Below are positions 541 through 32,341 of a DNA stretch of 32,393 nucleotides, one piece after another. The notes beneath the pieces are model-generated. The model did no database searches. It worked only from the letters and a program-made list of their open reading frames with translations, and had not been told where the DNA came from. How positions within the stretch are numbered: the first letter of the stretch is position 1; the number at the start of each line of letters is the position of its first letter. Both the position numbers and the translations under genes were made by a program. The stretch is from Armatimonadota bacterium (GTDB taxonomy: Bacteria > Armatimonadota > JAAZEB01), in assembly GCA_012512505.1 (NCBI GenBank), contig JAAZEB010000155.1, positions 1 to 32,393 on the forward strand, given 5' to 3'.

Positions 541-3500
541 CTAGCACTCGCTGTGCCCGCAGGCGTGGCAGGTCATGCAGCCTTCCTCATGGATGAAGGC
601 AGCCTGCCCGCAGGCGGGGCACAGGTCGGCGGCCACCCCGACCGGCGGTTCCGTCTCGTGGCTGGCAAGCTCGTCCGGAACCGGGTGCCCGTTGCCACTG
701 CCCTCCACGCCGTAATGCTCCTCCAACGCCTGGGCCACCGCATCCGGCAGCGAGCGCACTCGGTCGCGGCCGAAGCCGATCCAGCGCGCGCCGCCGATCC
801 CCTTCATCTGGTTCACCATTTCGCGGATGCGGTCCAGGGGGCTGAGGGGCGAGGCGATGCGCAGCACCAGGGACATCAGGCGCCCAATCGCCTCCGCCAT
901 CGCTTTGACGTCGGTGCCTCCCTTGCCGATGTCCACGAACACCTCGAAGGGGCGGCCCTCCGCGTCGTTGTTCATCGTGATGTGGGCAGTGCCGGCGGGC
1001 GTCTTCTTGCTGACGGTGACGCCGTAGCGCTTGTAGGGCCGGGGGCGCACCTTCGGCTGCTCCGCCACTGCCGGGGCCGCCGCCGGCTTCTCGCTCGCCT
1101 CTTTGCGCAGCAGCACCTGTTCGTCACGCGAGCCGTCGCGGTAGATCGTACCCCCTTTGCAGCCGAGGCGGTACATCAACTCGTACAGTTCGCGTGTCTG
1201 AGCCACCGTGTAGTTGTTCGGCACGTTGCAGGTCTTGGAGATGCTGGAATCGATCCAGCGCTGGACGGCGGCCTGCACGCGCACGTGCTCCTCGGGCGTC
1301 AGGTCCATCGCCGTGACGAAGAAGTCTGGCAGCGGCTCGCCCGGGTTCAGCTCCTGCCACTCGCGCACAATCTCTACGTTCTCCTCATGAACGCCCAGCC
1401 GGCTCTTGCGGAAGTAGGTCCACGAGAAGTACGGCTCGATGCCGGTGGAGGTGCCGACCATCGTTCCAATCGTGCCGTTCGGAGCCTGCGTCAGCAGTGT
1501 CACGTTGCGCACGCCCTTTTCAGCCACCAGGGCGCGCACGTCCTCCGGCATGCGCTTCATGTAGCCGCTCTGCAGGAACTTCTCGGCATCGAACTTGGGG
1601 AAGGCACCCTTCTCGGCGGCCAACTCCGCCGCGGCGCGGTAGGCCTCGCGGGCGATGAACTCGTAGAGCCGGTCGATGAACTTTTCCGACTCGGCGCTGC
1701 CATAGCGGATGCCGAGGCGAATCAGCATCTCCGCCAGGCCCATCGTGTTCAGGCCCACGCGCCGCTCCGACTTTTGCTGCGTCTCGTTCTCGGTGAAGAA
1801 GTAGGGCGTCGCGTCGATCACATCGTCCAGGAAGCGCACCGCGTAGCGCACCGCCTGCCCCAGCGGCTCCCAGTCCACCTCGCCGTCCTTCACGAACCGC
1901 GACAGGTTGATCGCCCCCAGGTTGCACACGCCCCAACTTGGCAGGCCCTGCTCGCCGCAGTTGTGCACCACGATCCCGTTCGCGACGAACGAGTGGGTCA
2001 GCGGCTCCGTCAGGTCGTAAACCTCCTCCTCGCCCTCGTACTCCAGAGACTGGAAGGTGGCGCGGTAGTCCTCACGGTAGGGGCCGCGGGTGCATCGCTC
2101 CAGGTAGGCCTGCAGTGCGTCCTGCTTGCGCCGCAGGAGGAAGCCGATCTCCTCCGCGAAGCGCGTCAGGTTGTCCTTGGAGATGACCAGGTCGTGGTAG
2201 GCCGCGGCCCGGTAGAAAGCGTGCCCCCCTTTGCCGTCCGGCATCTCGGCCATCCGCTCCGGCTTGCGGTTGCGGTACAGGGTGCTGGCGATGCCGAAGT
2301 TGAGCAGCAGGCGCTGCACGTCGAGGAGCAGCCCCTCGCTCTTCGACGAGAGCCGGACGCTGCATCCCTTCTCGCCGCTATCGTTGACCTGCCCGTCCGC
2401 GGTAAAGAGCGCGGCCAGGAAGCCGGCCTGCATCTCCCGCGAGGCGGTGAAGAGGCGCTCCGGCACTTTCAGCTTGTCGCCCACCAGCCCAAACTCGTTC
2501 GCGACCCGCCACAGCCGCCACCCACCGACGCGCGCTTCGTCGCGCCCGGCAACCTCAATGGCGCTCACCGGGTAGGGACGGTTGGCTTTCTCCATGCCGG
2601 CCACGATCCGGTTCACCTTCTCGGCGAAGGCCGGAGCCAACTCACGCTTCTCCTCGCCGAAGAAGGAGAGCACCGCCTCGTTCGCCTTGATGGTGCCGTC
2701 GCCCACCAGCCAGCCGAGCACCTCGCCCAACTCGCGTGTGCCGGTGCGCCCGAAGCCGCCGCCCCCCATCTGCAAGTGCACGCGGTCGCCCGGCACCAGG
2801 GCATCGGCACGCACCCAGCCGCGGTCGGTACGCACGCGGTGGTCGCCGGTCAGGCGCACCGTGTAGCCTTCGGCCGTGCGCAGCCGGTAGACCGGTTTGA
2901 CCCCCGTGCGGAAGACATCCGCCGCGGGCGCGAACCGTCGCTCAGGCGATAGACGCTCGTCCAGGGCGACGTCCACCTCCGGGTGCATGGCCAGATCCCC
3001 GATGCGCTCCAGGCCGCGACTGGTCGCCACCAGCGTCTCCGCGGTAACACACGGGTTTGTGCACAAGATCGGCGCGTAGTACCAGGAGTTGGACATGCGG
3101 TTGTAGCGGTCCACGAAGAAGACGCCCGGTTCGGCGCTGGCCCAGGCGCTTTCGATGATCGCGTTCCAGATCTCGCGCGCCGAGCGCGTCTTGTGGACCA
3201 CCACCGGCTTGCCGGCCGCGCGCCAGGCATCCAGGTCACCATCCCACCGGGTATCGAACTCCGGGTCGCTGGTGTCGGGGAAGACCAGCTCCCACTCGCG
3301 GTCGGCCTCCACCGCGGCCATGAAGTCGTCGGTGATGCCAACGCTGATGTTGGCGTTGGTGATCTTGCCGGCCTCGCGCTTGGCGGTGATGAAGTCCAGC
3401 ACGTCCGGGTGCCAGACGTTGAGGATCAGCATCAGGGCGCCGCGCCGCGACCCACCCTGCTCGATCAGGCCGGTGACGAAGGAGTAGAGGCCGCCCCAGG

Positions 3501-4155
3501 AGACCGAGCCGGAGGAGCGCCCGTTGACGCCGCGCACGTAGGAGTGGCGCGGGCGCAGGCTGGAAAGGTTGATCCCGACGCCGCCCCCGCGCGACATGAT
3601 CTCCATCATCGCCGAGAGCGTGTCGACAATCCCCTTGCGCGAGTCGCGCGGGCTGGGCACCACGTAGCAGTTGTAGTAGGTGAGCTGCTGGTCGGTGCCG
3701 GCGGCGGTGAGGATCCGTCCGGCGGGCACGAACTTCCAGTCGTCCAGCAGCCAGCGGAAGCGCTGCTCCCACTCGGCGGCTTTCGGCCCCTCCACGGCGG
3801 CGATGCCACGGGCCACGCGGGCCATCATCTCCTCGGGGCGCGTTTCCAGCGGCTTGTCAATGTGCTCCACCGCGCGCTGCAGCGTGCTCCCATCGCGCAG
3901 CCGCACCGTCACCGTGCCGTCTTGCAGGTCGGCAATCGTGCCGATCTCGCGCTGGCCGGTTTTCACGTCGGTGCAGACCACTACCACGTCGCCCACTGCC
4001 AGCGATCTCTTGCTGGCATCCTTCAAGGCGTAGCGGTCCAGGAAGATCTTCTCGCCCAGTTCATTCAGTCGATTGCGCGCGGGCGCCTCATCCCCCGAAG
4101 CCTGGTCCGACCGGGCCTCATCAACCCGGTGGGAATCTGATCGGGTGGTATCCAT
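541..4155 (-). CDS. nrdJ: Vitamin B12-dependent (class II) ribonucleotide reductase with intein
   Basis: Reduces ribonucleotides to deoxyribonucleotides in the cytoplasm, using adenosylcobalamin to make the cysteine thiyl radical. Numbering here starts from a GTG three codons upstream (4164). The N-terminal redox cysteine lies in YYNCYVV (Cys166). The catalytic NPCGEQ motif is split by an intein (see separate entry), so the radical cysteine is Cys736 and the second redox cysteine is Cys747 in GVCNLGAINL, 11 residues later as in Thermotoga NrdJ. A TSCPD-like region and a C-terminal zinc motif (CPACG...CHACG) that may feed electrons to the active site follow. Residues about 53-105 are an extra, probably beta-barrel, insertion before the ATP-cone-like start of the fold. 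The ATG at 4155 is preferred because AGGAG lies 8 nt before it, whereas the upstream GTG overlaps that site. Without the intein the protein is about 840 residues, normal for the family. nrdR lies directly upstream on the same strand. Confidence 0.96.
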   Translation of the reverse strand: MDTTRSDSHRVDEARSDQASGDEAPARNRLNELGEKIFLDRYALKDASKRSLAVGDVVVVCTDVKTGQREIGTIADLQDGTVTVRLRDGSTLQRAVEHIDKPLETRPEEMMARVARGIAAVEGPKAAEWEQRFRWLLDDWKFVPAGRILTAAGTDQQLTYYNCYVVPSPRDSRKGIVDTLSAMMEIMSRGGGVGINLSSLRPRHSYVRGVNGRSSGSVSWGGLYSFVTGLIEQGGSRRGALMLILNVWHPDVLDFITAKREAGKITNANISVGITDDFMAAVEADREWELVFPDTSDPEFDTRWDGDLDAWRAAGKPVVVHKTRSAREIWNAIIESAWASAEPGVFFVDRYNRMSNSWYYAPILCTNPCVTAETLVATSRGLERIGDLAMHPEVDVALDERLSPERRFAPAADVFRTGVKPVYRLRTAEGYTVRLTGDHRVRTDRGWVRADALVPGDRVHLQMGGGGFGRTGTRELGEVLGWLVGDGTIKANEAVLSFFGEEKRELAPAFAEKVNRIVAGMEKANRPYPVSAIEVAGRDEARVGGWRLWRVANEFGLVGDKLKVPERLFTASREMQAGFLAALFTADGQVNDSGEKGCSVRLSSKSEGLLLDVQRLLLNFGIASTLYRNRKPERMAEMPDGKGGHAFYRAAAYHDLVISKDNLTRFAEEIGFLLRRKQDALQAYLERCTRGPYREDYRATFQSLEYEGEEEVYDLTEPLTHSFVANGIVVHNCGEQGLPSWGVCNLGAINLSRFVKDGEVDWEPLGQAVRYAVRFLDDVIDATPYFFTENETQQKSERRVGLNTMGLAEMLIRLGIRYGSAESEKFIDRLYEFIAREAYRAAAELAAEKGAFPKFDAEKFLQSGYMKRMPEDVRALVAEKGVRNVTLLTQAPNGTIGTMVGTSTGIEPYFSWTYFRKSRLGVHEENVEIVREWQELNPGEPLPDFFVTAMDLTPEEHVRVQAAVQRWIDSSISKTCNVPNNYTVAQTRELYELMYRLGCKGGTIYRDGSRDEQVLLRKEASEKPAAAPAVAEQPKVRPRPYKRYGVTVSKKTPAGTAHITMNNDAEGRPFEVFVDIGKGGTDVKAMAEAIGRLMSLVLRIASPLSPLDRIREMVNQMKGIGGARWIGFGRDRVRSLPDAVAQALEEHYGVEGSGNGHPVPDELASHETEPPVGVAADLCPACGQAAFIHEEGCMTCHACGHSEC
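1960..3051 (-). other. Intein with LAGLIDADG homing endonuclease inside NrdJ
   Basis: A 364-residue in-frame insertion splits TNP^CGEQ. It begins with Cys (CVTAETLVATSRG, the A block), has a B-block TGDHRVRT with the expected histidine, and ends in HSFVANGIVVHN followed by Cys+1 of the extein. All residues needed for standard Cys/Asn/Cys splicing are present. Two dodecapeptide motifs, LGEVLGWLVGDG and GFLAALFTADG, keep their acidic residues (the Asp of GDG and of ADG). The homing endonuclease domain therefore looks intact. Boundaries are exact to the residue, because the host motif NPCGEQ is restored on removal. Confidence 0.95.
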
Positions 4156-4357
4156 AAAACTCACTCCTCGCGTTGGGATGGCATCAGTGTCACGGTTCCA
4201 TCGCCTTCACGATGACGTACTGCGAGACGCTGCGATGCACCGCTGGTTTCACTACGGATGATGGGGTCTGCGCTCGTGCCACCACCTGGCCCACGCCCGG
4301 CGGCGCCGGCCACCGTCGCAAAAGTGCACGAGCGTTTGGAACACTCTACTCCCCGGC

Positions 4358-7014: not shown

Positions 7015-7054
7015 GGGTGGTAGGAGCGCGGGTGCCACCCACCGTCGCGGTGGG
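7015..7054 (+). promoter_or_regulatory. Overlapping alternative hairpins in the operon leader
   Basis: GGGTGG (7015-7020) can pair with CCACCC (7035-7040), while CCCACC (7038-7043) can pair with GGTGGG (7049-7054). The two stems share bases and exclude each other. They also cover a GTG at 7032 that has a TAGGAG 5 nt upstream. A regulatory role is inference only. Confidence 0.4.
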
Positions 7055-7088
7055 GAGCCCGCTTCCGGCGCGGCAGGGACCAGCAGCG

Positions 7089-8825
7089 ATGCGGCAGGCA
7101 GAGGGCTATTGGGGTGGCGGGCGTGCCCGGCAGAAGGCGCGCCAACTAGGGCAGGTGTTTACCCCGGCGCCCCTGGCCAACCTGATCGCGGCCCGGTGCA
7201 TCTCGCGGCCGGAGGCCACCGTCTTTGACCCCTGCGTGGGCGAGGGGGCGCTGCTGCTGGCTGCCGGCCAGCGGCTAGCCGCATTGGGGGCTACCGCCTG
7301 GCACCGCCAGCTCTTCGGCCTGGAGATCGACCCGGAGGCGTGGGCTATCGGCCGCCAGCGCCTGGCCGCCGCCGCCGGGGTGGCGGTCGACGAGATCCGG
7401 GTGGCGCGAGGCGACTTCCTCGCGGGGCAATGGCCCGACCTCGGGCCTGATGGCCAGGCCTCGCTACAGGCAGCCGATACGCTGCCGGGGCTGGCCCTGC
7501 CGGCAGTCGCCCGTTGCCCTTCGCCGCCGCTGTTTGACGTGGCGATCATGAACCCGCCGTACACGCGGCAGGAGCTGCTGCCAGCGGCGCGCAAGGCGGA
7601 CGGGCACGCGGCCGGCCTGAGCCGGCGGATTGGGCTGCACGGGCACTTTTGGGTCCACCTGGCCCGCTGCCTGCGCGAGGGTGGCTGGCTGGGAGCGATC
7701 ACCACGGCAACCTGGCTCTCGGTCGATTCGGGGCACGGGCTGCGGGCGTTCCTGCTGGAGCAGTTCCGCGTTCACCTGCTGATCGACCTAGAGCGCGACG
7801 TGTTCCCGGACGCCTGCGTGGAGGCGTGCATCGCTATCCTGGAAAAGCGGTCGGGGCCGGCAGCGGCTGCCGCGCGCGCGGAGACCCCGGTTCGCTTCGT
7901 CCGGCTGGGGGCTGGCCGCGATCCACAGGCGGCGCTGGCCGAGGCCCTCGCAGGGGAGGGCGCTGGCGAGGGGGAGGGCTGGCGTGCCCGGGTGGTGCCC
8001 CAAGCGGCCCTGACGGCAGCAGAACGCTGGAGCCGCTTCTTCCTGCCGGCAGCCGCGTTCCGGGTCGTTCGCGCCGCCGAGAGCGCCCCGGGGGTGCCGC
8101 TGGCGGCGGTGGCGCACCTGCGTCGGGGGATCACCACCGGCAACAACCGCGTCTTCTTGCTGACGGCGGAGGCCGCCCGCGCGGCGGGCATCGAAGCGGC
8201 CCACCTGCGGGCGATCGTGCGCTCGCCCCGGGAGATCCCGGGCCTGGATACCGACGCGGTGGCGGCGCCGGCCAAGCTGCTGCTGCCGCCAAACCCGGAG
8301 CAGTCGGACAGTGGCGCCGCCGCCTACCTGCGAGCGCGGGGAGTGAGCGGGTCTGCCTACCTGCGGGGAGAGCCGCCCCCGCCGGCGCCGCTGCTATTTG
8401 GCTACGCGGTGCGCGGGCGCAAGGCGTTCTTCCGCAACTCGGCGTGCCTACTGGCGAGTGATAACTTCCTGGAGATCGTGCCGCGCCACCCGGACGACGT
8501 GCCGCTCCTGTTCGCCCTGCTGAACGCGCTGCCCACGGCGTTCCGGCTGGAGACGCTCGGGCGCGGGCAGGGGCGCGGCCTGCTGAAGATCCAGCGCCGC
8601 GAGTTGGCCGCGCTGGTGCTGCCAGACCCGGCCCGCCTCGATCCCGGTCTGCGCCGCGAGCTGGAGAGCCTGGGGGAGGCGCTGCGGCGCGAACCCGACT
8701 GCGTGGCCGCTCGAACCGCGCTGGACGAGGCAGCCTGCAGCGCCTGCGGCCTCGACCCCGAGGCGCTGCGCCGCGCCGAGCAAGAGTTGGTCACGGGCCG
8801 GCTGGCCCGGAAAGGCGCGTGGTGA
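7089..8825 (+). CDS. Gamma-type N6-adenine DNA methyltransferase (TaqI/Eco57I-like)
   Basis: Transfers a methyl group from S-adenosylmethionine to adenine in a DNA target. Motif X is GQVFTP (residues 21-26 from ATG 7089), motif I FDPCVGEGALL (46-56), an acidic motif II in LEIDPE (78-83) and motif IV NPPYTRQ (155-161). The second half, beginning near HLRRGITTGNNRVFLL, resembles the target-recognition region of TaqI- and type IIG-like enzymes. No nuclease motif is seen. Length is 578 residues from ATG 7089; a GTG at 7032 with a better Shine-Dalgarno would add 19 residues of low-complexity sequence. It is the first gene of a three-gene unit, and its TGA overlaps the next start by 4 bp. Confidence 0.88.
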   Translation: MRQAEGYWGGGRARQKARQLGQVFTPAPLANLIAARCISRPEATVFDPCVGEGALLLAAGQRLAALGATAWHRQLFGLEIDPEAWAIGRQRLAAAAGVAVDEIRVARGDFLAGQWPDLGPDGQASLQAADTLPGLALPAVARCPSPPLFDVAIMNPPYTRQELLPAARKADGHAAGLSRRIGLHGHFWVHLARCLREGGWLGAITTATWLSVDSGHGLRAFLLEQFRVHLLIDLERDVFPDACVEACIAILEKRSGPAAAAARAETPVRFVRLGAGRDPQAALAEALAGEGAGEGEGWRARVVPQAALTAAERWSRFFLPAAAFRVVRAAESAPGVPLAAVAHLRRGITTGNNRVFLLTAEAARAAGIEAAHLRAIVRSPREIPGLDTDAVAAPAKLLLPPNPEQSDSGAAAYLRARGVSGSAYLRGEPPPPAPLLFGYAVRGRKAFFRNSACLLASDNFLEIVPRHPDDVPLLFALLNALPTAFRLETLGRGQGRGLLKIQRRELAALVLPDPARLDPGLRRELESLGEALRREPDCVAARTALDEAACSACGLDPEALRRAEQELVTGRLARKGAW

Positions 8826-10213
8826 CGAAGCCGTCTTACTTTCAGAGCCGCTATCTGGCGCATAAATACTGGGGGCGGAGGCCCTGGTACGTGGTGCGGG
8901 GGCTGATCGAGGAGAACACCTGCGAGGGCGACGTGGTGCTCGACTCCTTCTGCGGCAGCGGCACCACGGTGATTGAGGCGCTGGCCACCCGACGACGCGC
9001 GGTCGGCGTCGATCTCAACCCGATGGCGGTCTTCATCACCCGCGTCACCGCCACGCCGGCCGATCCCGCCGCCCTGACCGACGCCTTCGAGCGGCTGCGC
9101 GCCGTGGCCCAGGCGCCGATTGACCGCCTCTACGAGCGCGATCCCGAGGGGATCGTGCCGGAGCACTGGTACCCGGATGTCGTCTTGCCGCACTCCTCGT
9201 TCGGGGCGGCGCGCAAGGGCGTCACCGTGGCGCACCTCTTCTCGCGGCGCAACCTGGCCGCCACCGCCTTCCTCTGGCACGCCATCAACACCCTGGAGTG
9301 CGATCCCGTCTCGCGTGATCTGCTGCGCTACACCTTCACCGCCGCGCTCGCCCAGTTCACCAAGATGATCCGCACCAAGAAGGAGGGCACCGGCTGGTAC
9401 GTCAACGCCTACCGCATCCCACGCAGTCACCGCGAGAATAACGTGTGGCACTCTTACGAAAACAAGCTGCGCGCCGTGCTGCGGATGAAGCGGGAAAGCA
9501 ACGAACTGCTGGGGCACGTGGAGATAACCCAGGCGCCTCCCACGACCCCCGGCGCCACCTGCTGCCTGCGCTGCGGCTCCGCCACCGACCTCTCCTTTCT
9601 GCCCGACAACAGCATCGACTATGTCTTTATCGACCCTCCCTGGGCGATCAAGTACTTCGACCTGAGCGTGCTGTGGTGTGCCTGGATGGGCTTCCCCCTC
9701 AACTTCGACGAGGAGATCTTCCCGCACGAGGCCAACTTCCGGGAAGACATGGCCCGCGCCCTCAAGGAGCTGGCGCGCGTGTTGCGCCCGGGCCGGCGGG
9801 CGACGGTGAACTTCGCCACCCGCCACACCGACCAGATCAACGATCTGCGCGAGGCGATTGAGCACTCCGGCCTGGAGTGGACCGGCACCCAGACGCTGCA
9901 GCAGGACCAGCTCTCCTTCGTGCAGCGGCAGACCGACCTGGCGCTGAAGGCAAACTACCTGCTGACGCTGGAGAAGTGGCGCGCCCCCGCCGGCGCCGCG
10001 GCGCTGCCGGTGACCGCTGACTGCGTGGCGGCGATGATCGGCGCGCTGCTGGCCCGACGGGGGCCGCTCTCTTACGACGAGATCTTCCAGCACCTCTACC
10101 CGGAGATTGCCCGCCGCCCGCTGGAGTGCGACATCCGCCGGGTGTTGGAGCGCAACTTCCGCCTGGTGGAGGAGCGCCGGCCCTATGTCGAGCCGCGCTG
10201 GGCGGCGGATTAG
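8822..10213 (+). CDS. DNA methyltransferase, DSFCGSGTT...DPPW type
   Basis: A second, unrelated DNA methylase of 463 residues. The SAM-binding motif DSFCGSGTT is at 41-49 and the catalytic motif DPPW at 271-274. The segment HKYWGRRPW (14-22) resembles the start of COG1743/DUF1156-like adenine methylases. A CLRCG pair (248-252) precedes the catalytic motif. The last 100 or so residues look like a winged-helix or target-recognition module. The start is GTG at 8822 inside GTGA, translationally coupled to the upstream methylase; GTG 8819 is an alternative. DPPW rather than NPPY fits either N6-adenine or N4-cytosine methylation, so the modified base is unknown. Confidence 0.82.
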   Translation: MTKPSYFQSRYLAHKYWGRRPWYVVRGLIEENTCEGDVVLDSFCGSGTTVIEALATRRRAVGVDLNPMAVFITRVTATPADPAALTDAFERLRAVAQAPIDRLYERDPEGIVPEHWYPDVVLPHSSFGAARKGVTVAHLFSRRNLAATAFLWHAINTLECDPVSRDLLRYTFTAALAQFTKMIRTKKEGTGWYVNAYRIPRSHRENNVWHSYENKLRAVLRMKRESNELLGHVEITQAPPTTPGATCCLRCGSATDLSFLPDNSIDYVFIDPPWAIKYFDLSVLWCAWMGFPLNFDEEIFPHEANFREDMARALKELARVLRPGRRATVNFATRHTDQINDLREAIEHSGLEWTGTQTLQQDQLSFVQRQTDLALKANYLLTLEKWRAPAGAAALPVTADCVAAMIGALLARRGPLSYDEIFQHLYPEIARRPLECDIRRVLERNFRLVEERRPYVEPRWAAD

Positions 10214-10224
10214 GGGAAGGCGAC

Positions 10225-13065
10225 GTGCCGACGATCCTGACGCCCTCACTGCACGAGCACAACTACTACCCGCCCCTCCTGGAACGCCTGGAGCGCGCCC
10301 TCGCCCGCCTCGGCCTCGACCGCAAGGGCTTCCACGTCGTCATCTCTCCCGATGCCGACAACCAGGCCGACCTGATGGTGAAGCAGTTCACTCAGGACCG
10401 CCTGGCAATCGAAGTGAAGAAGACGCGGGAAGATGTGGCCGCCGTGCGCACCTGGAAGCAGGCGCGCGGCTACGTCACCAACTCCACCACCGCCGGCCTG
10501 CGCCACTTCTGCGTCACCAATGGCGAGCTGCTCTTCATCTTCCGCCACGAGGAGGGGCAGCGCGTGGCCGCCTGCCTGGTGGCTGGCGGGCGCAAGGATC
10601 TGGGCCGCTTCGGCCCCGGCGGCGAGGCGGATGCCGTGCTCGACCGTTGGGAAGAGGAGATCACCGCGCTGCTGCGCGACCTCTTCGTCGTTCAGCGGGA
10701 GTACGCCCTCGACCACTCCTTCGCCGGCCTGATCGAGAAGTATGGCCAGGCCCACGTCCTCTTGGCCGAGCGGCTGCGCCGCGCCGTCGTCGAGCGCCTG
10801 GCCGACCCCCAGTGGCGGGAGGCGTTCCTGGCCTGGTGCCGCACCTTCTCTGCCACCCCCGAAGCGCCGGAGAACCAGGCCGTGGCCGCCGAGGAGGCCG
10901 CGCACCTGCTGCTGCACCGGATCCTCTGCTACGAGCTGTTCCGCACCCAGCTTGACCTGCTGGATGACCGCCTCAAGCGCCGCTTCCAGGTGCCGCGCGT
11001 CACCCTGGAGCCGCTTACCACCGCGGCGGTGGGAGACACGCCGATCACCCAGGCGCTGGCCGAGCGCTTCCAGGCCCTCACCCGCGTGAATTACACCCAG
11101 GTCTTCACGCGCGACCCGGTGCTGGACACCCTCCCCCTCGACACCGAGGCGGAGGGCATCGTGCGCGCCTTCCTGGAGGACGTGGATGCCTTCTCCTTCG
11201 ACCTGGGGAACTTCGAGGAGGCGCGCCGCCTCTTCCCCACCGTCTTCGAGGCGCTGGTGCCCCCGGAGAAGCGGCGCCGCTACGGGCAGGTCTTCACCCC
11301 CCAACCGCTGGTGGAGATCCTCTGCCGCCTCTGCATCACCGACCCTACGCAGCGGGTGCTGGACCCGGCGGCCGGCACCGGCGCCTTCCTGGACGGTGCC
11401 TACGAACGCCTCGACACGCTGGCGCTGGCGGCCGGCCAACCGCTGGACCACCGTGAGCTGCTGGCGCGCCTCTACGGGGTGGAGATCAGCACCTTCCCGC
11501 TGCACCTGTGCGCCGTGCGCCTGGCGCTGAAGCATCCCGCCTTGCCTACCGAGGCGCAGCTTTGCCACGCCGATTTCTTCCACACCGACCCCGGCTCGCT
11601 GCTGGGCGGGCAGCAAGCCGACGTGGTGCTCGGCAACCCTCCTTACATCCGGCAAGAGGTGCTGGCCGAGAAAGAGACCATCCGCGAGCGGATCCGGTCG
11701 GCACTGGGAGAGAGCGGGCCCACCGGCCACGCCTATCCCTACAGCCCGAGGGAGGCAGACGCCTACTTCTACTTCGTGGAATACGCCACCGCCTACCTGC
11801 GCGAAGGGGGCGCCGCCGGCTGGGTGCTCTCCGACAAGTTCCTGGTGGTGGACGCCGGCCGGCCGCTGAAGCAGTTCTTGCTGGATCACTACCACGTGCG
11901 CGCGGTCATCACCCTGGCGCGGCGCACCTTTGCCGAGGCCCTGGTGGACAACTGCCTCCTGGTGCTGCGCCGCCAGACGGGCGGAGCGCCGCCGGAGGCG
12001 CCCACGCTCTTCCTGAAGCTCCGCCGGCCGCTGCCGGTCGAGGAAGTGGCCCGTCTGGTGGAGGACCCGCGGCCGGGCGCCAACGCCTACCGCCGCGCGG
12101 TGGTCCGGCCGCGCTGCCAGATCGCCGCCGGCGACAAGTGGCTGGGCTACCTGACCGATGACGGCGTGCTGCCGCGCGTGCTCGCCTCGCCCGGGATGAC
12201 CCCGCTCGTTGCCGTCGCCACCTACGAGCGCGGGCCGGACAACGGCTGCGCCGCCTTCTTCTTCCCCAGCGAGGAGCTGATAGAGAGCTTCGGGCTGCCG
12301 GAACGCTTCCTGGTGCCGGCGGTGGAGCGGGGAAGCGACCTGCGCCGCCTGATCCTGCGCCGCAGCGAGTGCAAGCGCCTGCTGCGGGTGCCGCCGGATA
12401 CCGACCTGACAGCGCCCGCCAACGCTGGCCTGGCCGCTTACATCGCCTATGCCGAAACGCCCGAGTTCGACGCGGGCTACCGGCACCGGGGGCGCTACCT
12501 GCCGGTGCCACAGCGCCCGGTGGTCACCGCCAATGCCGGCGGCGGGCCCTGGTGGTCGTTCACCCGGGGCTCGGGCGACTGGCAGATCCTGGTGCCGCGC
12601 GGGTTCCGCACCCACTATAAGGTGGTGGCCAACCGGGCGCGGGCGCACCTCTCGACCAACTTCTGGGGCCTGCGCCTACGGGGCGCCGGTCGCCACCCCC
12701 GCGAGTTGGTGATCGATATCGCCTTCGTGACGGCGTTTCTGAACAGCAGCCTGGGGCAGCTTCAGGTGGAGCGCGAGGCGCGCCGCTACGCCGGCTTCAC
12801 CAAGCTGGAGCGCCAGGAGCTGGAGCGCCTGCGCGTCCTCGACCCCCAGCGCGTGCCGCTGCCGGAGCGCCGCCGTGTCTATCGGCTCTTCCGAGACCTC
12901 GATGCCGCCTATGGCACCCCGGCGTACGCGGATGCCCGCGAGGCGCTGGACCGGGCATTCCTCGCCCTCCTCGGCTGCGAAGAGCAGTACGACGACCTGA
13001 TTGACCTGCTGGACGAACTCGTTTCCGAGCGCCAGCAGTCCGGCGCCGGGCCGGATGCCGCCTGA
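10225..13065 (+). CDS. Nuclease-methyltransferase fusion, type IIG/type I-like restriction enzyme
   Basis: A 946-residue protein that probably both cuts and methylates DNA. The N-terminal 120 residues resemble an HsdR_N-like PD-(D/E)XK nuclease: Asp45/Asp49 in SPDADNQADL, then IEVKK (62-66), and a downstream FCVTNGELLFIF strand. A helical spacer (about 140-345) follows. The gamma-type methylase has GQVFTP (354-359), LDPAAGTGAFL (379-389) and NPPYIRQ (471-477). The remaining 450 residues would hold the target-recognition domain. The start is GTG 10225 with GGAAGG just upstream, 11 bp after the preceding gene. No helicase motif is seen, which argues against a classical type I motor subunit. It closes the operon. 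Confidence 0.85.
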   Translation: MPTILTPSLHEHNYYPPLLERLERALARLGLDRKGFHVVISPDADNQADLMVKQFTQDRLAIEVKKTREDVAAVRTWKQARGYVTNSTTAGLRHFCVTNGELLFIFRHEEGQRVAACLVAGGRKDLGRFGPGGEADAVLDRWEEEITALLRDLFVVQREYALDHSFAGLIEKYGQAHVLLAERLRRAVVERLADPQWREAFLAWCRTFSATPEAPENQAVAAEEAAHLLLHRILCYELFRTQLDLLDDRLKRRFQVPRVTLEPLTTAAVGDTPITQALAERFQALTRVNYTQVFTRDPVLDTLPLDTEAEGIVRAFLEDVDAFSFDLGNFEEARRLFPTVFEALVPPEKRRRYGQVFTPQPLVEILCRLCITDPTQRVLDPAAGTGAFLDGAYERLDTLALAAGQPLDHRELLARLYGVEISTFPLHLCAVRLALKHPALPTEAQLCHADFFHTDPGSLLGGQQADVVLGNPPYIRQEVLAEKETIRERIRSALGESGPTGHAYPYSPREADAYFYFVEYATAYLREGGAAGWVLSDKFLVVDAGRPLKQFLLDHYHVRAVITLARRTFAEALVDNCLLVLRRQTGGAPPEAPTLFLKLRRPLPVEEVARLVEDPRPGANAYRRAVVRPRCQIAAGDKWLGYLTDDGVLPRVLASPGMTPLVAVATYERGPDNGCAAFFFPSEELIESFGLPERFLVPAVERGSDLRRLILRRSECKRLLRVPPDTDLTAPANAGLAAYIAYAETPEFDAGYRHRGRYLPVPQRPVVTANAGGGPWWSFTRGSGDWQILVPRGFRTHYKVVANRARAHLSTNFWGLRLRGAGRHPRELVIDIAFVTAFLNSSLGQLQVEREARRYAGFTKLERQELERLRVLDPQRVPLPERRRVYRLFRDLDAAYGTPAYADAREALDRAFLALLGCEEQYDDLIDLLDELVSERQQSGAGPDAA

Positions 13066-22007: not shown

Positions 22008-22772
22008 CTACCTGAAGATCAACTGACGCCGGAGGGCTTCGTCTGGGCGGCGATGGATGCGCTCAACGTTCTCGGGAGAAAGGAACTGGGGGCCGCCAAA
22101 GGCAGCGGTGGCCAGCAGCACCCGGCAAGTTTTCACCCACATTGCCGTCACGCTCTCCACTTCGGCGGGGGTGCGTCCGAGCGCGATCAGGCCGTGGTTG
22201 CGCAGCAGGATCACCTTCGGTATCTCGCCGTGCTGCTCCACGTGGGCGCGGATGCCGTCGCGGATGGCATGAGCCAGTGGCAGGCCGGGGTCGGTGTAGG
22301 GCACCAGCAGCGGCGCTGGCCCGCAGACGACGATCTGGTCCGGGAACAGGCTGCCGCCGATGACCTTCTCAGCGTCGCGCGCGCAAAGGAGCGCGTTCAC
22401 CATCGTGGGGTGAGTGTGGCCGACGAAGCGGATCCCCTCCAGGCCGAGCAGGAGGGCGTGAAACGTCGCCTCGATCGAGGGCGCCGCCGCTTCGGGGTTG
22501 ACGCTCGCCGCGCGCAGGCCGTCTTTGATCTGCGCGTCGGTCAGCGAGCCCTGCTTCAGGAGCTCCATCACTGCCGGGCGGCGCACCGCCACGAACCCCT
22601 CTGGCTGGATGCCGACCAGGCTTTGCCCGCTGGCCTTGATGAGGAAGATCTCCTCGTCTACGGCGGCGGAGGTGTTTCCCTCACCCAGGATCACCAGGTC
22701 ACGCTCCGGCTCACCGAGCCGGGCAGACATCGCCGTCAACTGCTGCAGCACCTTCTGGTATCTGTCGTCCAT
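22008..22772 (-). CDS. Class II aldolase/adducin family protein
   Basis: 254 residues. Family features are the phosphate-binding loop GEGNTS (30-35), the catalytic glutamate in SIEATFH (101), the zinc histidines of HTHP (119, 121) and a further His in RNHG (193). The enzyme probably cleaves or epimerises a sugar phosphate, like fuculose- or ribulose-phosphate aldolases or epimerases. It has no C-terminal amphipathic targeting helix. An AGAGG lies upstream of the ATG. It shares an operon with the EamA transporter, and an FGGY kinase lies 3.8 kb further on, so a sugar route is plausible but unproven. Confidence 0.9.
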   Translation of the reverse strand: MDDRYQKVLQQLTAMSARLGEPERDLVILGEGNTSAAVDEEIFLIKASGQSLVGIQPEGFVAVRRPAVMELLKQGSLTDAQIKDGLRAASVNPEAAAPSIEATFHALLLGLEGIRFVGHTHPTMVNALLCARDAEKVIGGSLFPDQIVVCGPAPLLVPYTDPGLPLAHAIRDGIRAHVEQHGEIPKVILLRNHGLIALGRTPAEVESVTAMWVKTCRVLLATAAFGGPQFLSPENVERIHRRPDEALRRQLIFR

Positions 22773-25132: not shown

Positions 25133-26584
25133 CTACCCGTACCCCCGCCGGGCGCAGGCCTCACGGAAGCGCGCGTAGAGGGCCTCGTAGGCGTCGCGCA
25201 GTGCCGGGCGCGGCTCCACGGCGCACTCCGGATGAACCATGGCGCGCACGGCCGCGGAGAGGCTGGAGTGAAGAGTGCCCGCCGCCGCCAGCAGCGCGGC
25301 GCCGAAGGCGGCCTCCACTACCTGCGGGCGCACCAGCGTCCGCCCCAGCAGATCGGCACGGATCTGCAGCCACTCGCGGCTGCGCGCGGCGCCCCCGGTG
25401 ACGTGGATCCGCGGTCCCACCGGCACCCCGAGCGATTCCATCACCTCGAAGACCCACCGCTCCAGGCAGGCCGTTCCCTCCAGGTGCGCCGCGTAAAGCG
25501 CGCCTGTCTCCGTGCCGGCCGGCGCCTCGATAAAGCCTTCGGCGGCTGGGGCAACAAAGGGAAGCCGCTCGCCGCGCCGAGCCAGCGGGTAGACGGTGAG
25601 CGGGGTGGGGGAGAGCGCCAGCGCCTGCCGGTCCAACGCCGGCCAGTCGGCACCGGCAAAGCGCCGCTCCAACCACTCGCCGCCGGTGCTGCTGGCGCCG
25701 CCCGGCAGCCAGTAGCCCTCCGGGTGACGGTGGCAGTAGATCCGCCCCGCCGGATCGCGCACCAGATCGCGGCTGACGCCTCGCACCACGAGAGTGGTGC
25801 CCAGGGTGGCGTTCCACTCGCCCGGGGCAATCGCGCCCGAGGCCAGGAACGCCGCGGTGCCATCGGTGGCCCCGGCGGCGACGGCCAGGCCGGGGGACAG
25901 GCCAGTCTCCCGTGCCGCTGCCGCGGACACCGCGCCGATCCGGGTGCCCGGCGCGGTGACGCGCGGCAGTTTTGCCAAGGGAATGCCCAGGTCGCGCTCG
26001 ATCCACTTGCCCCAGCACAACTCCAGCAAATCGTAGCCCGTCTTCAGGGCGTTGGAGGAGTCGGAAAGGCCGAGCTCGCCGGTTAGGCGCAGCACCAGGT
26101 AATCGGCCGCGTGGAGGAAGCAGGCGGTGCGCTCGAAAAGCTCCGGCTCGTGGATCCGGATCCAGAGGAGCCGGGGGAGGGCAAAGGGAGCCTGGAAGGC
26201 GTAGCCCAGTTTCGCTGCCAGCGCCCGGCCGGCTTCCTGCACCTGCGCGGCCTCTTCCACGGCGCGCGCGTCGTTGTACATCAGGGCCGGCCGCAGCGCG
26301 CGCCCCGCCGCGTCCACCGGCACCACCGTGCCCGAGGTGGCGGTGACGGCAATCGCCACCATCCGCTCCGGTGCCACCTGGGCGCCCACCTGCTGCAGGC
26401 AGGCCCGCGCGGCCTCCCACCAGGAGTCTACCTCTTGCTCCGACCAACCAGGCGGCAGCGGCGGCCCAGCACGCTCCGGCAGCCGCTGCGACGCCGCCGC
26501 CAGCACGCGCCCGGCGGCATCCACCGCCAGCGCCCGTGCCCCTTGCGTGCCCACGTCGAGCCCAACAACACACTCCCTGCTCAT
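25133..26584 (-). CDS. FGGY-family carbohydrate kinase (xylulokinase-like)
   Basis: A 483-residue sugar kinase. The N-terminal phosphate loop is GLDVGTQGARAL. A catalytic-type Asp lies in VAAGATDGTAAF, and TGGAARSREWLQ is the adenosine-binding GGGA-like motif. The conserved EAAFGAALLA helix closes the second domain. Family members phosphorylate xylulose, ribulose, fuculose, glycerol and others, and sequence alone does not decide. The ATG at 26584 starts MSRECVVGLD; an upstream in-frame extension has no family similarity. It diverges from the secreted protein at 26773 across 188 bp with no gene. Confidence 0.92.
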   Translation of the reverse strand: MSRECVVGLDVGTQGARALAVDAAGRVLAAASQRLPERAGPPLPPGWSEQEVDSWWEAARACLQQVGAQVAPERMVAIAVTATSGTVVPVDAAGRALRPALMYNDARAVEEAAQVQEAGRALAAKLGYAFQAPFALPRLLWIRIHEPELFERTACFLHAADYLVLRLTGELGLSDSSNALKTGYDLLELCWGKWIERDLGIPLAKLPRVTAPGTRIGAVSAAAARETGLSPGLAVAAGATDGTAAFLASGAIAPGEWNATLGTTLVVRGVSRDLVRDPAGRIYCHRHPEGYWLPGGASSTGGEWLERRFAGADWPALDRQALALSPTPLTVYPLARRGERLPFVAPAAEGFIEAPAGTETGALYAAHLEGTACLERWVFEVMESLGVPVGPRIHVTGGAARSREWLQIRADLLGRTLVRPQVVEAAFGAALLAAAGTLHSSLSAAVRAMVHPECAVEPRPALRDAYEALYARFREACARRGYG

Positions 26585-26772
26585 AGGCCCCCCAGCCGCA
26601 TCCCCGCGGGTCACCCCGTTGCCCCTTTCCCCCGGGATTCGCCGCTGCCCGGGGCAACTCCCTCTCACCGGCGGCAGGGGCGCCGCGGCGAGCCGCCGAA
26701 CTACGCGCCCGGAGGTTTGCAGGGGGCACCATGCCACACCGGCCCCTGCTGCCTGGATGGGAGCGATGGCCG

Positions 26773-28533
26773 ATGGAGAAGCACACCCTGATCCTGTCGC
26801 TGGCCCTGATCGGCACGCCAGCCGCCCTCGCCCAGGAAGACTGGGATACCTGGCCGCCGCGCGCCTACCTGCTGAAGTCGCTGACCGAGGCGGTGCCCGA
26901 CATACTCGACTTTTACCACCCCGAGACCGGCCGCTTCGGCACCGAGCCGTGGATCTGCCTTGACCAAAACGTCCTCTTCCCCCTGGCGGCCGCCTGGGCG
27001 ATCCGCGACCCGGCCAACCCCTGGTACCACAGCGACCAGGTACTGCAGGCGATTGCCGGTGGCGGCGAGGCGTTGGTGGACGCCATGGATGACGCGGGCA
27101 TGTGGCTCTTCAAAAAGAAGGATGGCTCCACCTGGGGGCAGATCCATATGCCATGGACCTACAGCCGCTGGATTCGGGCCTACGCCCTGGTGCGCGATGC
27201 CCTCCCCGCGGCGACACGGGCGAAGTGGGAGAAGGGGCTGCGCCTCGGCTTCACCGGCATCTGCAAGTACATGGAGGATGGCCCGCACAATATCCCCACC
27301 CACCACGCCATGGCGCTCTACATCGCCGGCGAGTGCTTCGACAACCAGGAGTGGAAGCAGGCTGCCGCCGCCTTCATGGCCCGCATCGTGCGGGCGCAGG
27401 ATCCTGTTGGCTTCTGGTCAGAGCACTTCGGGCCGGTGGTCGGCTACAACGATGTCTACGTCGATGCGCTCGGGGTCTACTATCACTTCTCGAAAGACCC
27501 GGTAGTGCTGGAGGCGCTGCGCCGGGCGGGGCAGTTCCACGCCAGCGTGCTGTGGCCGGACGGAACCTCCGTCGCCGCCATCGACGAGCGCCAGACCTAC
27601 TCCGGGGCGATCTACGGCGGCAACGTCGGCTTCACCTGGACCCCCGAGGGCCGCGGCTTCCTGCTGATGCAGATGGCCCGCTGGGCCGGCCCGGAGCGGC
27701 GCGCCGTCGGGGCCGACTACGCGGCCTCCCTGCTCCTCTACAGCGGTGATGGCCCCTTCGTGGCACCGCCAGCGGATCGTGCCGAGGGCATGGTGGTCCT
27801 CGGCAAGAACGACGCCCTCATCCGGCGCCGCAAGCCGTGGCAGTGGGCGCTCTCCGGCTACGCCTGCCCGCCGGTCCAGAGCCGTTGGATCCAGGACCGC
27901 CAGAACCTGGTAGACCTCTACCACGACTCGCTCGGGTTGGTGGCCGGCGGCGGCAACACCAAGCTGCAGCCCTATTGGTCCACCTTCACCGTGGGCGATC
28001 CCGCCCTGCTGCGGCACCAGCCGGGCGATGAGGCGCCCGGCTTCGTGCCCACCATCGACCTGCGCTGGACGCCCGACGACGCGGAGATCGCCAACCACGA
28101 CGCCGTCTCCGTGCTGACGGCGCGCTACGGCGAGGTGTCGTGCCAGGTGAGCGTGGAGGCGCGCGCTGGCGGGACGCTGCGGGTCACCTACCAGGCACCG
28201 CGCGGCCGCCGGGTGGAGGCGCACCTGCCGCTGCTGCGGCGGGCGGCGGCGCTGCGTACCGCCACCGGCAGGACGGTGGCACTGGACGAAGAGCCGGTGC
28301 TGCTGGATGCCGCCGCGATAGGCGAGCACTTCGTCTTCGCCGGCTTGAAGGTGACGATGCCGCCCGGGGCCTCACTGCGCTGGCCGGCACGCCCACACAA
28401 CCCCTACGCCAAGGACGGCGCTGCCACCCTGGCGGAGGCCCGGCTGGTGCTGGTGCTGCCCTTCACCGAGACGGACGAGCACGCCGTCATCCTCTCCCAC
28501 CAGCCAGAGGAGGCGCCACCCACTAAACATTAG
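26773..28533 (+). CDS. Secreted alpha/alpha-toroid-like protein, probable polysaccharide-degrading
   Basis: 586 residues with a Sec signal peptide (MEKHTLILSLALIGTPAALA, cut before QED). The first 350 residues are rich in helices bearing aromatic and His motifs (GPHNIPTHHAMALYIAGE, FWSEHFGPVVGYNDVYVDALG, IYGGNVGFTWTPEGRG). This recalls the (alpha/alpha)-barrel of heparinase-, lyase- or hydrolase-type enzymes. A beta-sandwich-like C-terminal part follows from about 400. The exact family was not recognised. The start uses GGGAG 9 nt upstream. Beyond the stop at 28533 there is a 217-bp gap holding the promoter and leader of the next gene. Confidence 0.65.
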   Translation: MEKHTLILSLALIGTPAALAQEDWDTWPPRAYLLKSLTEAVPDILDFYHPETGRFGTEPWICLDQNVLFPLAAAWAIRDPANPWYHSDQVLQAIAGGGEALVDAMDDAGMWLFKKKDGSTWGQIHMPWTYSRWIRAYALVRDALPAATRAKWEKGLRLGFTGICKYMEDGPHNIPTHHAMALYIAGECFDNQEWKQAAAAFMARIVRAQDPVGFWSEHFGPVVGYNDVYVDALGVYYHFSKDPVVLEALRRAGQFHASVLWPDGTSVAAIDERQTYSGAIYGGNVGFTWTPEGRGFLLMQMARWAGPERRAVGADYAASLLLYSGDGPFVAPPADRAEGMVVLGKNDALIRRRKPWQWALSGYACPPVQSRWIQDRQNLVDLYHDSLGLVAGGGNTKLQPYWSTFTVGDPALLRHQPGDEAPGFVPTIDLRWTPDDAEIANHDAVSVLTARYGEVSCQVSVEARAGGTLRVTYQAPRGRRVEAHLPLLRRAAALRTATGRTVALDEEPVLLDAAAIGEHFVFAGLKVTMPPGASLRWPARPHNPYAKDGAATLAEARLVLVLPFTETDEHAVILSHQPEEAPPTKH

Positions 28534-29380: not shown

Positions 29381-29401
29381 CGCGGCCAGCTACTCAGCTC
29401 A

Positions 29402-29450
29402 GGAGCGGAGGCACCGGGCAGACAGCCGGTGCCTCCGCTCCTTTTTTTTT
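29402..29450 (+). terminator. Strong intrinsic terminator
   Basis: A perfect 16-bp stem (29402-29417 with 29426-29441), 8-nt loop, and nine T residues (29442-29450). It is placed 21 bp past the prepilin-like stop. Confidence 0.97.
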
Positions 29451-29473: not shown

Positions 29474-29851
29474 TCAGCCGATGACGGCGACGCAGTCGAT
29501 CTCCACCTCCAGGCCCGGGCGGGCCAGGGAGACGCCCACGGTAGTGCGCGCCGGCCGGTGGCTGCCGAAGAACTCGGCGTAAACCGCGTTCATCGTGTCG
29601 AAGTCGCGCTGCACGTCGGTGAGGTAGACGGTCGTCTTCACCACCCGGTCTACCGAGGAGCCGGCGGCCTCCAGCAGGGCGCGGATGTTCTCGAGCGTCT
29701 GCCGCGTCTGGGCAGCAACGCCGCCGGGAACGATCTCCGTTGTGCCCGGCCGATAGCCGACCTGTCCGGAGACGTAGACCACGTCGCCGACACGCACGGC
29801 GCCGGCCAGTGGGATCGTGGGATGAGGGTGGATCGGTTCCAGAGAAGGCAT
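29474..29851 (-). CDS. RidA/YjgF-family imine deaminase
   Basis: 125 residues. Hydrolyses reactive enamine/imine intermediates (for example 2-aminoacrylate) to ketoacids, usually as a homotrimer. Features are GDVVYVSGQVG, KTTVYLTDVQRDF and the substrate-binding Arg in RPARTTVGV (about 102). These are consistent with the active RidA subfamily rather than an Arg-less paralogue. ATG with AAGGAG 7 nt upstream. It is the last gene of the microcompartment-type set, 137 bp downstream of the shell gene. Confidence 0.95.
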   Translation of the reverse strand: MPSLEPIHPHPTIPLAGAVRVGDVVYVSGQVGYRPGTTEIVPGGVAAQTRQTLENIRALLEAAGSSVDRVVKTTVYLTDVQRDFDTMNAVYAEFFGSHRPARTTVGVSLARPGLEVEIDCVAVIG

Positions 29852-29932
29852 CGCTTCACTCCTTGGGTGTTGCACGGTCGATAAGCCAGCCAGATACGAA
29901 GCGGCCCGCACGAGCCGAAAGCCTCCATCAGC

Positions 29933-29982
29933 GCCTGGCGCGGCGCGGGTCGCCGCCTCGCCGAGGGATCACCGCGCCAGGC
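29933..29982 (-). promoter_or_regulatory. Intercistronic hairpin between the BMC and RidA genes
   Basis: GCCTGGCGCGG (29933-29943) and CCGCGCCAGGC (29972-29982) form an 11-bp perfect stem with a 28-nt interior, 6 bp past the BMC stop. It may end or process the shell transcript, or reduce read-through into ridA. Confidence 0.5.
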
Positions 29983-29988
29983 ACCAGC

Positions 29989-30660
29989 CTACTCTCCCGG
30001 CAGCAGCCGGGCCAGGTCGGCATGCGGCCGGGCGATGACGTGCGAGGCGATGTGCTTGCCGCCGATGCGCTGGCAGGCGGCGGTGCCCGCCTCAACGGCG
30101 GCGGCGACGGCCGCCACGTCGCCGCGCACGATCACGGTGACGTAGCCGGCGCCGATCTTCTCTTTGCCCACCAGTTCCACGTTGGCGGCCTTTAGCATCG
30201 CGTCGGCAGCTTCCAGCATCGCCGTGAGCCCCTGGGTCTCCACAAAGCCCAGGGCCAGGCTGTTCGTCTCCTTGCGCATCACTGCTCCTTCGGGGCCGGG
30301 CGCGGCGCCCGTCTCGCGGTCTCCCGCCGCCGGTTCCCGCTCTGGGCGGGGGTAGTACTGCTCGTAGCCGCCGTAGAGGGCGTTGAAAGTTCGCCGGGGA
30401 GCCACCAGCGCCGGGGGAATCACCGGGCGCGCCAGCACCTCGGCGGCGAACGCGGCGCCCATCTGCTCGGCGGCAGCCCGCCCAGCGGCAACGGCCGCCT
30501 GCACCGCCGCCGTCGCGCCCCTCAGGCGGATCAGCATCTCGCCGCGGCCGTTCGCCTCGATGGAGGCGACCACCACCCCGGCGGCCTTGCCAACGCAATC
30601 GGCGACGACCGCCGTGGGCGAGAAGCCAGCCACTTCCACCAACCCGAGGGCCTCGGTCAC
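29989..30660 (-). CDS. Tandem BMC-domain shell protein (BMC-T-like)
   Basis: A bacterial-microcompartment shell protein of 223 residues with two BMC domains (about 3-80 and 135-215). Both show the family start ([14 protein letters not shown]), the central helix ([22 protein letters not shown]), the strand MLIRLRG or TVIVRGD and an end ARP. The second domain has the typical pore-lining KIGAG; the first is more divergent (no KIG; GRGEM). Domain order is normal rather than circularly permuted. The linker of about 50 residues is rich in Tyr, Pro and Gly. The start GTG overlaps the aldolase stop as GTGA. An internal ATG at 30279 has a perfect AAGGAG 5 nt upstream, so a separate second-domain protein of 96 residues (29989-30279) may also be made. 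Confidence 0.93.
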
Positions 30661-31694
30661 CGGCTACCCTCCTGCCGCAGGCGCAGCAGCACCTCGCGCA
30701 CCACGGCGCGCACCTGCTCTTCGGAGAGATTGGCGGCGGCCTGGGTGGCGCACACAGGCGAGACGGGTGGCGGCGGCACCAGTGGATCAGGATCGAACTC
30801 TTTCAGCAGTTCGTGCAGCACCTGGCGCAGCGCCTCGATGTTGCAGCGCTCGCCCGGAGCCAGCGGCTGGCGCGACTCGCCCATTCGGAAGCCGCGCAGT
30901 TCCATCGCCGCGCGGAACCCCTCCGGGAAGCCAGCCCCGAACAGCATGGTGTTGATCAGATGCAGCACGCGGTACTGCAGCGCCACCGCCCGGGGGAAGT
31001 CGCCCCGCTCCACGCAGCGGAACATCTCCACCACCACTTCGGGCACCACGCCGGCGGTAGCGACCGTGCCGCCATCGCCCCCCATCAGCAGCGTCGGCAC
31101 CAGGATCTCCTCGCAGCCGATCAGGAAGGAGAAGTCTGGGCGCAGCGGGCGCACCTCGTTGATGGTGTTCAGGAAGCGCGGCATGTCGCGGCTGCTGTCT
31201 TTGATGGCGACGATGCGCGGCAGCTCCACCAGTCGCTTCAGCACGTCGATGCTGATCTCGTTGTTGGTGAACTGGGGGATGTTGTAGAGGGTGATATCGA
31301 TGGGGCTATGTCGGGCCAGGGTAGCGAAGTGCTCGTAGACGCTCTCCTGGCTCAGGCGGTAGTACCACGGCGGCACCACCGCCACCGTGTCGCAGCCCAG
31401 CTCCGCGTAGTACTCGCAGGCGGCCAGCGTTTTCTCCAGGCTGAACTCGGCCGCGCCCGCCAGCACCTTCGCGCGCCCGCGGTTCTGGTCCACCACGATC
31501 CGCACGATCTCCTTGTGCTCCTCGAAGGAGAAGCGGACGAACTCGCCCATCGTGCCGTTCGGGTAGAGGCCGTGTACCCCGCGCTGGATCAGGAACTCCA
31601 CCAGCCGGCGCAGCTCGCCCTCGTTGATGCGCCCCCGGGAATCGAGAGGCACCATGTTGGGAGTGAAGATACCGCGCAGTCGTTCTCGTGGCAT
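30657..31694 (-). CDS. DapA-superfamily aldolase/lyase with probable BMC encapsulation peptide
   Basis: 345 residues. The barrel is of the dihydrodipicolinate synthase/N-acetylneuraminate lyase family: NGTMGE (46-51), Tyr137 in TLYNIP and Schiff-base Lys165 in VAIKDSS. It probably cleaves or forms a 2-keto acid by a pyruvate-Schiff-base mechanism; the exact substrate is unknown. After the barrel comes a Pro-rich linker (about 302-313, [13 protein letters not shown]) and an amphipathic helix (about 322-343, with [16 protein letters not shown]). This linker-helix tail is not part of ordinary DapA and looks like the encapsulation peptides that direct enzymes into microcompartments. The gene overlaps the shell-protein start by 4 bp, supporting that reading. 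GGAGG lies 12 nt before the ATG. Confidence 0.93.
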
Positions 31695-31792
31695 GGGAAC
31701 CGTGCGCCTCCTCGGCAGTCGTGTGCTGGACAGGTTCTCTGACCGGCGCGCGGACTCCTTCGGGGCCCATCGCGGCCGGAAAGCAGGTTACC

Positions 31793-32341
31793 TCAGCCGG
31801 CGGCCAGCCACTTCCCGGTGTGGGTGAGCACCGCCAGCTTCATCTCCAGGTTCTGCCGGCGCACCGGGACCACGTCGCGCAGGTCGAAGCCGCAGGTCTG
31901 CAGCACGCGCTCGAGGGTGGCGGCGCAGGCTGGCCCGCCCCCGCCGCGGCCGCCAGCCACGCAGACGCCCACGGCCGGCTTCCCGGCGATTCCGGCCTTG
32001 CCCGCCTCGTGCAGGCAGGTGCGGCGCAGGCGGTCGAGGAACGCCTTGAGGCTCTCGCTCAGGTCGGCAAAGTAGACGGGGGTGGCGAAGACGCCGGCGT
32101 CGGCGGCGCGCAGCTTTGCCACCAGACCGGCCTGATCGTCGGCGATCTCACACTCGCCCTGGCTGAGGCAGGTGCCCCAGCCGTTCTCATCACACTGGCG
32201 GCAACGCTCGATCCGCAGCGTCGGCAGGAACACCTGCTCCACCTCCGCGCCCTCCGCCTGCGCCCCCATCGCCAGCGCGGCGGCGGCGCGCGCCGTTTGC
32301 CCCTCCGGGTTTCTGCTGCCCAGGATCACCAGAACCTTCAT
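31793..32341 (-). CDS. Flavodoxin-fold NADPH-dependent FMN reductase/iron-sulfur flavoprotein
   Basis: 182 residues. The FMN phosphate loop is GSRNPEGQT (8-16). Four cysteines at 47, 50, 58 and 64 (CRQC...C...C) have the spacing seen in iron-sulfur flavoproteins and related FMN reductases. A TPVYFADLSESLKAFLDR segment is also family-typical. It reduces flavins, quinones or an unknown acceptor in the cytoplasm. ATG at 32341 with GGGAGAAGAG upstream. Its stop lies 98 bp before the aldolase start, on the same strand, so it may be the first visible gene of the microcompartment-type operon. The 52 bases beyond 32341 hold no gene. Confidence 0.88.
   Translation of the reverse strand: MKVLVILGSRNPEGQTARAAAALAMGAQAEGAEVEQVFLPTLRIERCRQCDENGWGTCLSQGECEIADDQAGLVAKLRAADAGVFATPVYFADLSESLKAFLDRLRRTCLHEAGKAGIAGKPAVGVCVAGGRGGGGPACAATLERVLQTCGFDLRDVVPVRRQNLEMKLAVLTHTGKWLAAG

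Follow-up and report, generated by a model that had tools for sequence, protein, structure and literature searches.

A DapA-family enzyme with a putative encapsulation peptide and a tandem shell protein probably form a satellite module of a PVM-like metabolosome

The window analysed here, a stretch of 32,393 nucleotides from an Armatimonadota bacterium, probably contains a satellite module belonging to a PVM-like metabolosome, in which a trans-encoded class I pyruvate aldolase is the cargo and is accompanied by a BMC-T shell protein of its own (Table 1). Judging from sequence comparisons, the C-terminal tail of this DapA-family enzyme very probably sends it into a protein-shelled organelle, and it is highly likely that the enzyme is encapsulated in the shell encoded on contig C49 of the same genome. 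The system is best read as an extension of a known organelle type, not as a new one.

Table 1. Coordinates of the features of the module and of the class II aldolase of the C49 locus
Feature	Position	Strand	Basis
Terminator-like element, strong hairpin then T run on the plus strand, separating the module, at its RidA end, from a pilin-like gene	29401..29442	.	17-bp perfect arms
RidA-type enamine/imine deaminase	29474..29851	-	TIGR00004 over cut-off; ATG start, AAGGAG site
Tandem BMC-domain shell protein (BMC-T, unpermuted)	29989..30660	-	PF00936 twice, whole protein E 1.3e-39
DapA-superfamily class I aldolase/lyase with C-terminal extension, 345 aa	30657..31694	-	PF00701 E 1.6e-61, residues 6-294
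Encapsulation-peptide-like helix, residues 325-342, after a Pro-rich linker (residues about 300-324)	30669..30722	-	Clade conservation, peptide score, low-confidence model
FMN-reductase/flavodoxin-fold protein with CxxC...C motif	31793..32341	-	PF03358 FMN_red 1.8e-23
C49 class II aldolase (PF00596) with C-terminal peptide	L006:12628-13443		Aldolase encoded with shell genes, as in PVM-like loci

The GTG start of the BMC-T gene overlaps the stop of the DapA-family gene by 4 bp (GTGA; span of the pair 29989-31694, minus strand), which bears out the overlap between a DapA gene and a double BMC-domain gene described in a first-pass annotation of this DNA. The first BMC domain of the shell protein is divergent and the second is BMC-H-like, its nearest PDB sequence is 6ner, a tandem fusion of BMC-H, and a search of the genome with PF00936 found no other tandem BMC protein. 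The pair is indeed flanked, as that annotation had it, by a RidA gene, on the same strand and 137 bp downstream of the BMC-T stop, and by an FMN-reductase-type gene, which carries CRQCDENGWGTC and lies 98 bp upstream of the DapA gene. Readable sequence stops in this direction at the contig end (32393), 52 bp beyond the start of the flavoprotein gene. A hairpin between BMC-T and RidA has an energy that is ordinary in comparison with shuffles. Further away, the window encodes the large subunit of a ribonucleotide reductase, interrupted in frame by an intein that has LAGLIDADG and Intein_splicing domains (541-4164, minus strand), two N6 DNA methyltransferases of the Eco57I type whose genes enclose a third, methylase-like one (7017-13065, plus strand), possibly a restriction or defence locus, and a protein of 600 residues that begins like a signal peptide and matches nothing in Pfam or NCBIfam (26731-28533, plus strand). 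A class II aldolase that lacks any extension of the encapsulation type, together with an FGGY sugar kinase (22008-22772 and 25133-26737, minus strand), possibly represents a deoxy-sugar or pentulose route.

The window enzyme shares its protein family and its catalytic Tyr and Lys with E. coli DapA, NanA, YagE and YjhH, and alignment to these proteins places the catalytic residue at Tyr137 and the Schiff-base residue at Lys165. With both intact, the protein is probably an active class I (Schiff-base lysine) enzyme. The view that it is not the DapA of lysine synthesis stood up on several counts: Phe142 replaces Arg138 of the YNxPxR motif of DHDPS, the score against TIGR00674 is 164.6 bits, under the cut-off of 206.15, so that neither mark of DapA sensu stricto is present, and a separate DapA-like gene on contig C2 of the same genome retains the arginine. 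Nor does it qualify as an N-acetylneuraminate lyase, reaching 147 of 382 bits against TIGR00683 and 166.6 of 281 bits against NF003164 and grouping apart from NanA in the tree. The tailed proteins instead form a clade of their own (24/24 sequences, support 0.993), apparently an undescribed subfamily, on a long stem; the clade lacks the DHDPS Arg138 and branches separately from the four E. coli enzymes, none of which has the C-terminal extension.

This extension sets the clade apart. Past window residue 296 there are 39 to 52 residues in the five tailed sequences first compared, against 4 to 18 in 19 others, and every one of the 24 clade sequences has the tail, which the 19 family members compared from outside the clade all lack. 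Class II aldolase peptides served to build a position matrix, with which we scored the C-termini of the proteins called in the loci examined. The window tail scored 6.9, a level that 9 of 588 control C-termini attain. Seven of these nine belong to class II aldolase cargo, with one gene entered twice, and several of the seven had contributed to the matrix; the other two, L103_1794_2942 and L097_2535_3605, are unrelated. When the 36 residues scored were shuffled 20,000 times, 0.75% of the shuffles attained the window score. The matrix fails to set every clade member apart, since scores within the clade go as low as -0.5, and the helix of the window enzyme, taken by itself, has a hydrophobic moment that was unexceptional, and not significant, against shuffles. 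An AlphaFold model (two sequences, mean pLDDT 58.7) places the helix behind a coil with low confidence, and since a fold search would need a higher mean, the model was used solely for the helix call. The Pro-rich linker and helix reported in the first-pass annotation are thus borne out by the sequence, and their interpretation as an encapsulation peptide gains support from conservation in the clade and from likeness to the peptides of the enzymes encoded on C49. Terminal peptides resembling the tail are found there on the class II aldolase (...HTRELVERITREVLQSLRSR), PduL (MDEQELIRAITTEVLRRL...) and AldDH (...ENQIRQIVEDVMRAL...), and a 266-residue protein has an N-terminal peptide of the same kind. 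As expected of cargo of this shell, the DapA-family enzyme has at its terminus a short helix, predicted with low confidence, on a flexible linker.

Within the window's phylum, 4 of 291 genomes were found to have a tailed enzyme, those of the other three being 56-64% identical to the window enzyme, and all four are among the 15 with PF00936 matches (Fisher 5e-6, ignoring relatedness). A profile search of 392 sampled Planctomycetota gave matches in 39 genomes at E <= 1e-80, and in 38 of them the match extends at least as far as model position 311. Tails were aligned for 20 of the 38, and in the others the extension rests mainly on model coordinates. The remaining match, in G652, is tailless, stopping at position 296, and this genome has no BMC genes. 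BMC genes are present in all 38 tailed planctomycetes and in 11 of 41 sampled genomes without a match (Fisher 4e-13, ignoring relatedness), giving 42/42 tailed genomes with shell genes across both phyla, although relatedness of the genomes inflates these co-occurrence counts. Among planctomycete shell loci read from tailed genomes, 19 of 22 are a PVM operon with a class II aldolase and three are partial, one of them at a contig end, whereas none of 11 shell loci from planctomycetes without the tailed enzyme (some on short contigs) matches the PVM aldolase or PduL, which indicates a link with PVM-type shells in particular. The converse fails in the window's phylum, where eight of the PVM-like loci read belong to genomes without a tailed DapA. 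Viral contigs yielded no relatives, and the only family members found on plasmids were less than 60% identical in their best places.

As a rule the tailed gene lies at a distance from shell genes, and in three genomes it adjoins BMC-T: that of the window; G214, from another family of the same phylum, with the same GTGA overlap; and the planctomycete G660, with a 55-bp gap. The coupled pair in G214 and the spaced pair in G660 argue that the arrangement in the window is not due to chance. In G511 the tailed gene lies about 3.5 kb upstream of a tandem BMC gene, and in G656 it is near the PVM operon. The tandem BMC family occurs in eight compared loci (seven besides the window), all from tailed-DapA genomes; G320, which has no tailed DapA, contains a 32% match. 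That most planctomycete copies do not adjoin shell genes would suit an ordinary cytosolic DapA paralogue whose tail and shell neighbour are coincidental, but we consider this highly improbable in view of the restriction of the tail to the clade, the shell genes in every tailed genome and the three adjacent pairs. The association of the enzyme with a microcompartment, as first proposed, is instead supported by the overlap with BMC-T and by the co-occurrence with shell genes.

Searches of the genome with PF00936 and PF03319 located a single other shell locus, on C49, which has three BMC-H genes and one BMC-P gene, no BMC-T, and genes for AldDH, PduL, a class II aldolase and the 266-residue protein, which is without a Pfam match (L006:10091-10891, minus strand); proteins similar to the latter occur in many of the PVM and PVM-like loci read. 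The C49 locus shares with the PVM and PVM-like BMCs the class II aldolase, AldDH, PduL, BMC-H, BMC-P and enzymes that bear encapsulation peptides, here including AldDH and PduL, and we call it PVM-like because of its class II aldolase. It is not a strict PVM locus, since the planctomycete PVM operons read have AckA (acetate kinase), a DeoR regulator and three BMC-P genes, whereas the 19 kb read on C49 gives no match to the first two and has one BMC-P gene. The PVM operons read contain no DapA-family enzyme, unlike the window module. The window, on a contig that ends at 32393, thus contributes only BMC-T and the DapA-family enzyme, too little by itself for a shell, and BMC-H and BMC-P are on C49, a division expected of a satellite locus. 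In other genomes, in loci L040 (9321-11278), L045 (8411-10383) and L114 (1432-3440), an RnfC/PduS-like protein beside a PduT-like tandem BMC protein constitutes a separate satellite.

The first-pass annotation had gone further and proposed a self-standing new metabolosome, with the DapA-family protein as signature enzyme and RidA clearing reactive imines. The position of RidA, on the same strand and close downstream, is compatible with such a type, as is our finding no BMC type with a DapA-family enzyme in the literature searched. Nevertheless, we regard it as very unlikely: BMC-T is the contig's sole shell gene, no AldDH or PduL was seen among the annotated window genes, the genome already has a PVM-like core that holds its only BMC-P, and the tailed gene goes with the PVM operon in the planctomycetes checked. 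Neither RidA nor the flavoprotein was found beside the DapA gene or BMC-T in the relatives examined, the neighbours there including a YCII protein in G214 and, downstream of the tailed gene in G213 and G216, pentapeptide-repeat proteins (L034:5563-6564 and L035:14066-14965, both minus strand). As this neighbourhood is not conserved, RidA and the flavoprotein were dropped as pathway members and are not reckoned to the system. Homologues with the same tail but no BMC neighbours, which the first-pass annotation had named as a refutation of its proposal, do occur across Planctomycetota, always in shell-bearing genomes; they argue against an operon-defined new type and are compatible with encapsulation in trans.

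2-Aminomuconate deaminase is an enzyme of the RidA superfamily. The locus of the ARO BMC, which acts on 2-aminophenol, can include this deaminase (PMC10470539); its enzymes and shell differ from those of the window, and the window RidA is not a conserved partner. Closer likenesses are found among known satellites. Satellite loci that pair signature enzymes with BMC-T have been described and proposed to widen the substrate range, and a distal, trans-encoded sugar enzyme or aldolase with an extension like an encapsulation peptide was noted for HO genomes (Sutter et al. 2021; PMC8217296). As in the EUT-module satellites of that survey, the window has a signature enzyme and one BMC-T away from the main locus; it differs from the EUT and HO satellites in its DapA-family aldolase, its unpermuted BMC-T and a core that is PVM-like rather than HO or SPU. 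The main texts of two BMC surveys make no mention of a DHDPS/DapA-family enzyme, and our literature searches returned no report of a DapA-family enzyme in a BMC, a prior listing in supplementary files being possible in either case.

We propose that the C-terminal peptide would bind the shell as the peptides of PVM enzymes do, so that the DapA-family aldolase would be carried inside. Its translation would be coupled to that of BMC-T, which is reasonably likely to join the shell, perhaps providing a larger pore for the substrate. Class I aldolases of the DapA family release pyruvate and an aldehyde, and within the shell the enzyme may cleave a 2-keto-3-deoxy sugar acid in this manner; we suggest this reaction tentatively, with 2-keto-3-deoxy-L-fuconate or -L-rhamnonate as best-guess substrate and pyruvate and L-lactaldehyde as products. 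Encapsulated AldDH and PduL would then process the aldehyde, as they would that of the class II aldolase. In Planctomycetes and Verrucomicrobia, fucose and rhamnose derived from algal and plant polysaccharides are known to be broken down by way of the PVM organelle. To our knowledge, FucH, an L-2-keto-3-deoxyfuconate aldolase, carries no encapsulation peptide. As described in PMC11199699, FucH yields pyruvate and L-lactaldehyde, the cleavage proposed here. L-lactaldehyde is also the aldehyde handled by the PVM core of a characterised organelle (PMC8857213) of the BMC type described in PMC4207490, and an aldehyde shared in this way is the simplest link between the two.

The sequence of the subfamily leaves room for other substrates. 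It is about equally distant from DapA, NanA and YagE/YjhH, and its FPEGxRA motif and active-site residues fit no single reference, as might be the case if the tail reflects shell association and the substrate has nothing to do with deoxy sugars, candidates being 2-keto-3-deoxygluconate, a 2-keto-3-deoxypentonate (with glycolaldehyde as product) or 4-hydroxy-2-oxoglutarate. We think this somewhat unlikely, because co-occurrence with a lactaldehyde-producing PVM operon favours a shared aldehyde. Active-site differences within the subfamily (YKIP in G213 and G214; D/E195; E/A196) indicate that the substrate may vary among its members. Gene neighbourhoods were dropped as a clue to it, those in planctomycetes resembling housekeeping genes and those in G214 (PdxA, URO-D, YCII) having no evident common theme, and so was an enolase-superfamily sugar-acid dehydratase (PF13378), since matches in all seven genomes, with or without a tailed DapA, make the counts uninformative.

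DapA-family aldolases are reversible, and the enzyme could be PVM cargo that works in the condensing direction, trapping the aldehyde with pyruvate as a non-volatile 2-keto-3-deoxy acid. The handling of lactaldehyde by the PVM core (PMC4207490, PMC8857213) and our finding neither a dehydratase nor a dehydrogenase gene for sugar acids next to the DapA gene would accord with a trap, which we nonetheless judge quite unlikely, since it would spend pyruvate and need an exit route for the product, and none was found. The tailed relatives across Planctomycetota, always accompanied by shell genes, suggest that the organelle has a second aldolase encoded elsewhere. It is possible, though we advance it with caution, that PVM-type metabolosomes of Planctomycetota and of the window's phylum hold a second, DapA-family pyruvate aldolase acting on lactaldehyde, and our literature searches found no description of such chemistry for microcompartments. 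Such an enzyme might conceivably open a second route of entry, for deoxy-sugar acids that are not phosphorylated, or else use pyruvate to trap aldehyde within the organelle.

If a second aldolase, encoded in trans, is a regular cargo of the PVM organelle, the pathway as published would be incomplete, and surveys limited to the locus would miss conserved cargo. An encapsulation peptide combined with co-occurrence offers a concrete, genome-wide way to orphan cargo of this kind, and the substrate of the enzyme would reveal whether deoxy-sugar intermediates enter these organelles in phosphorylated as well as non-phosphorylated form.
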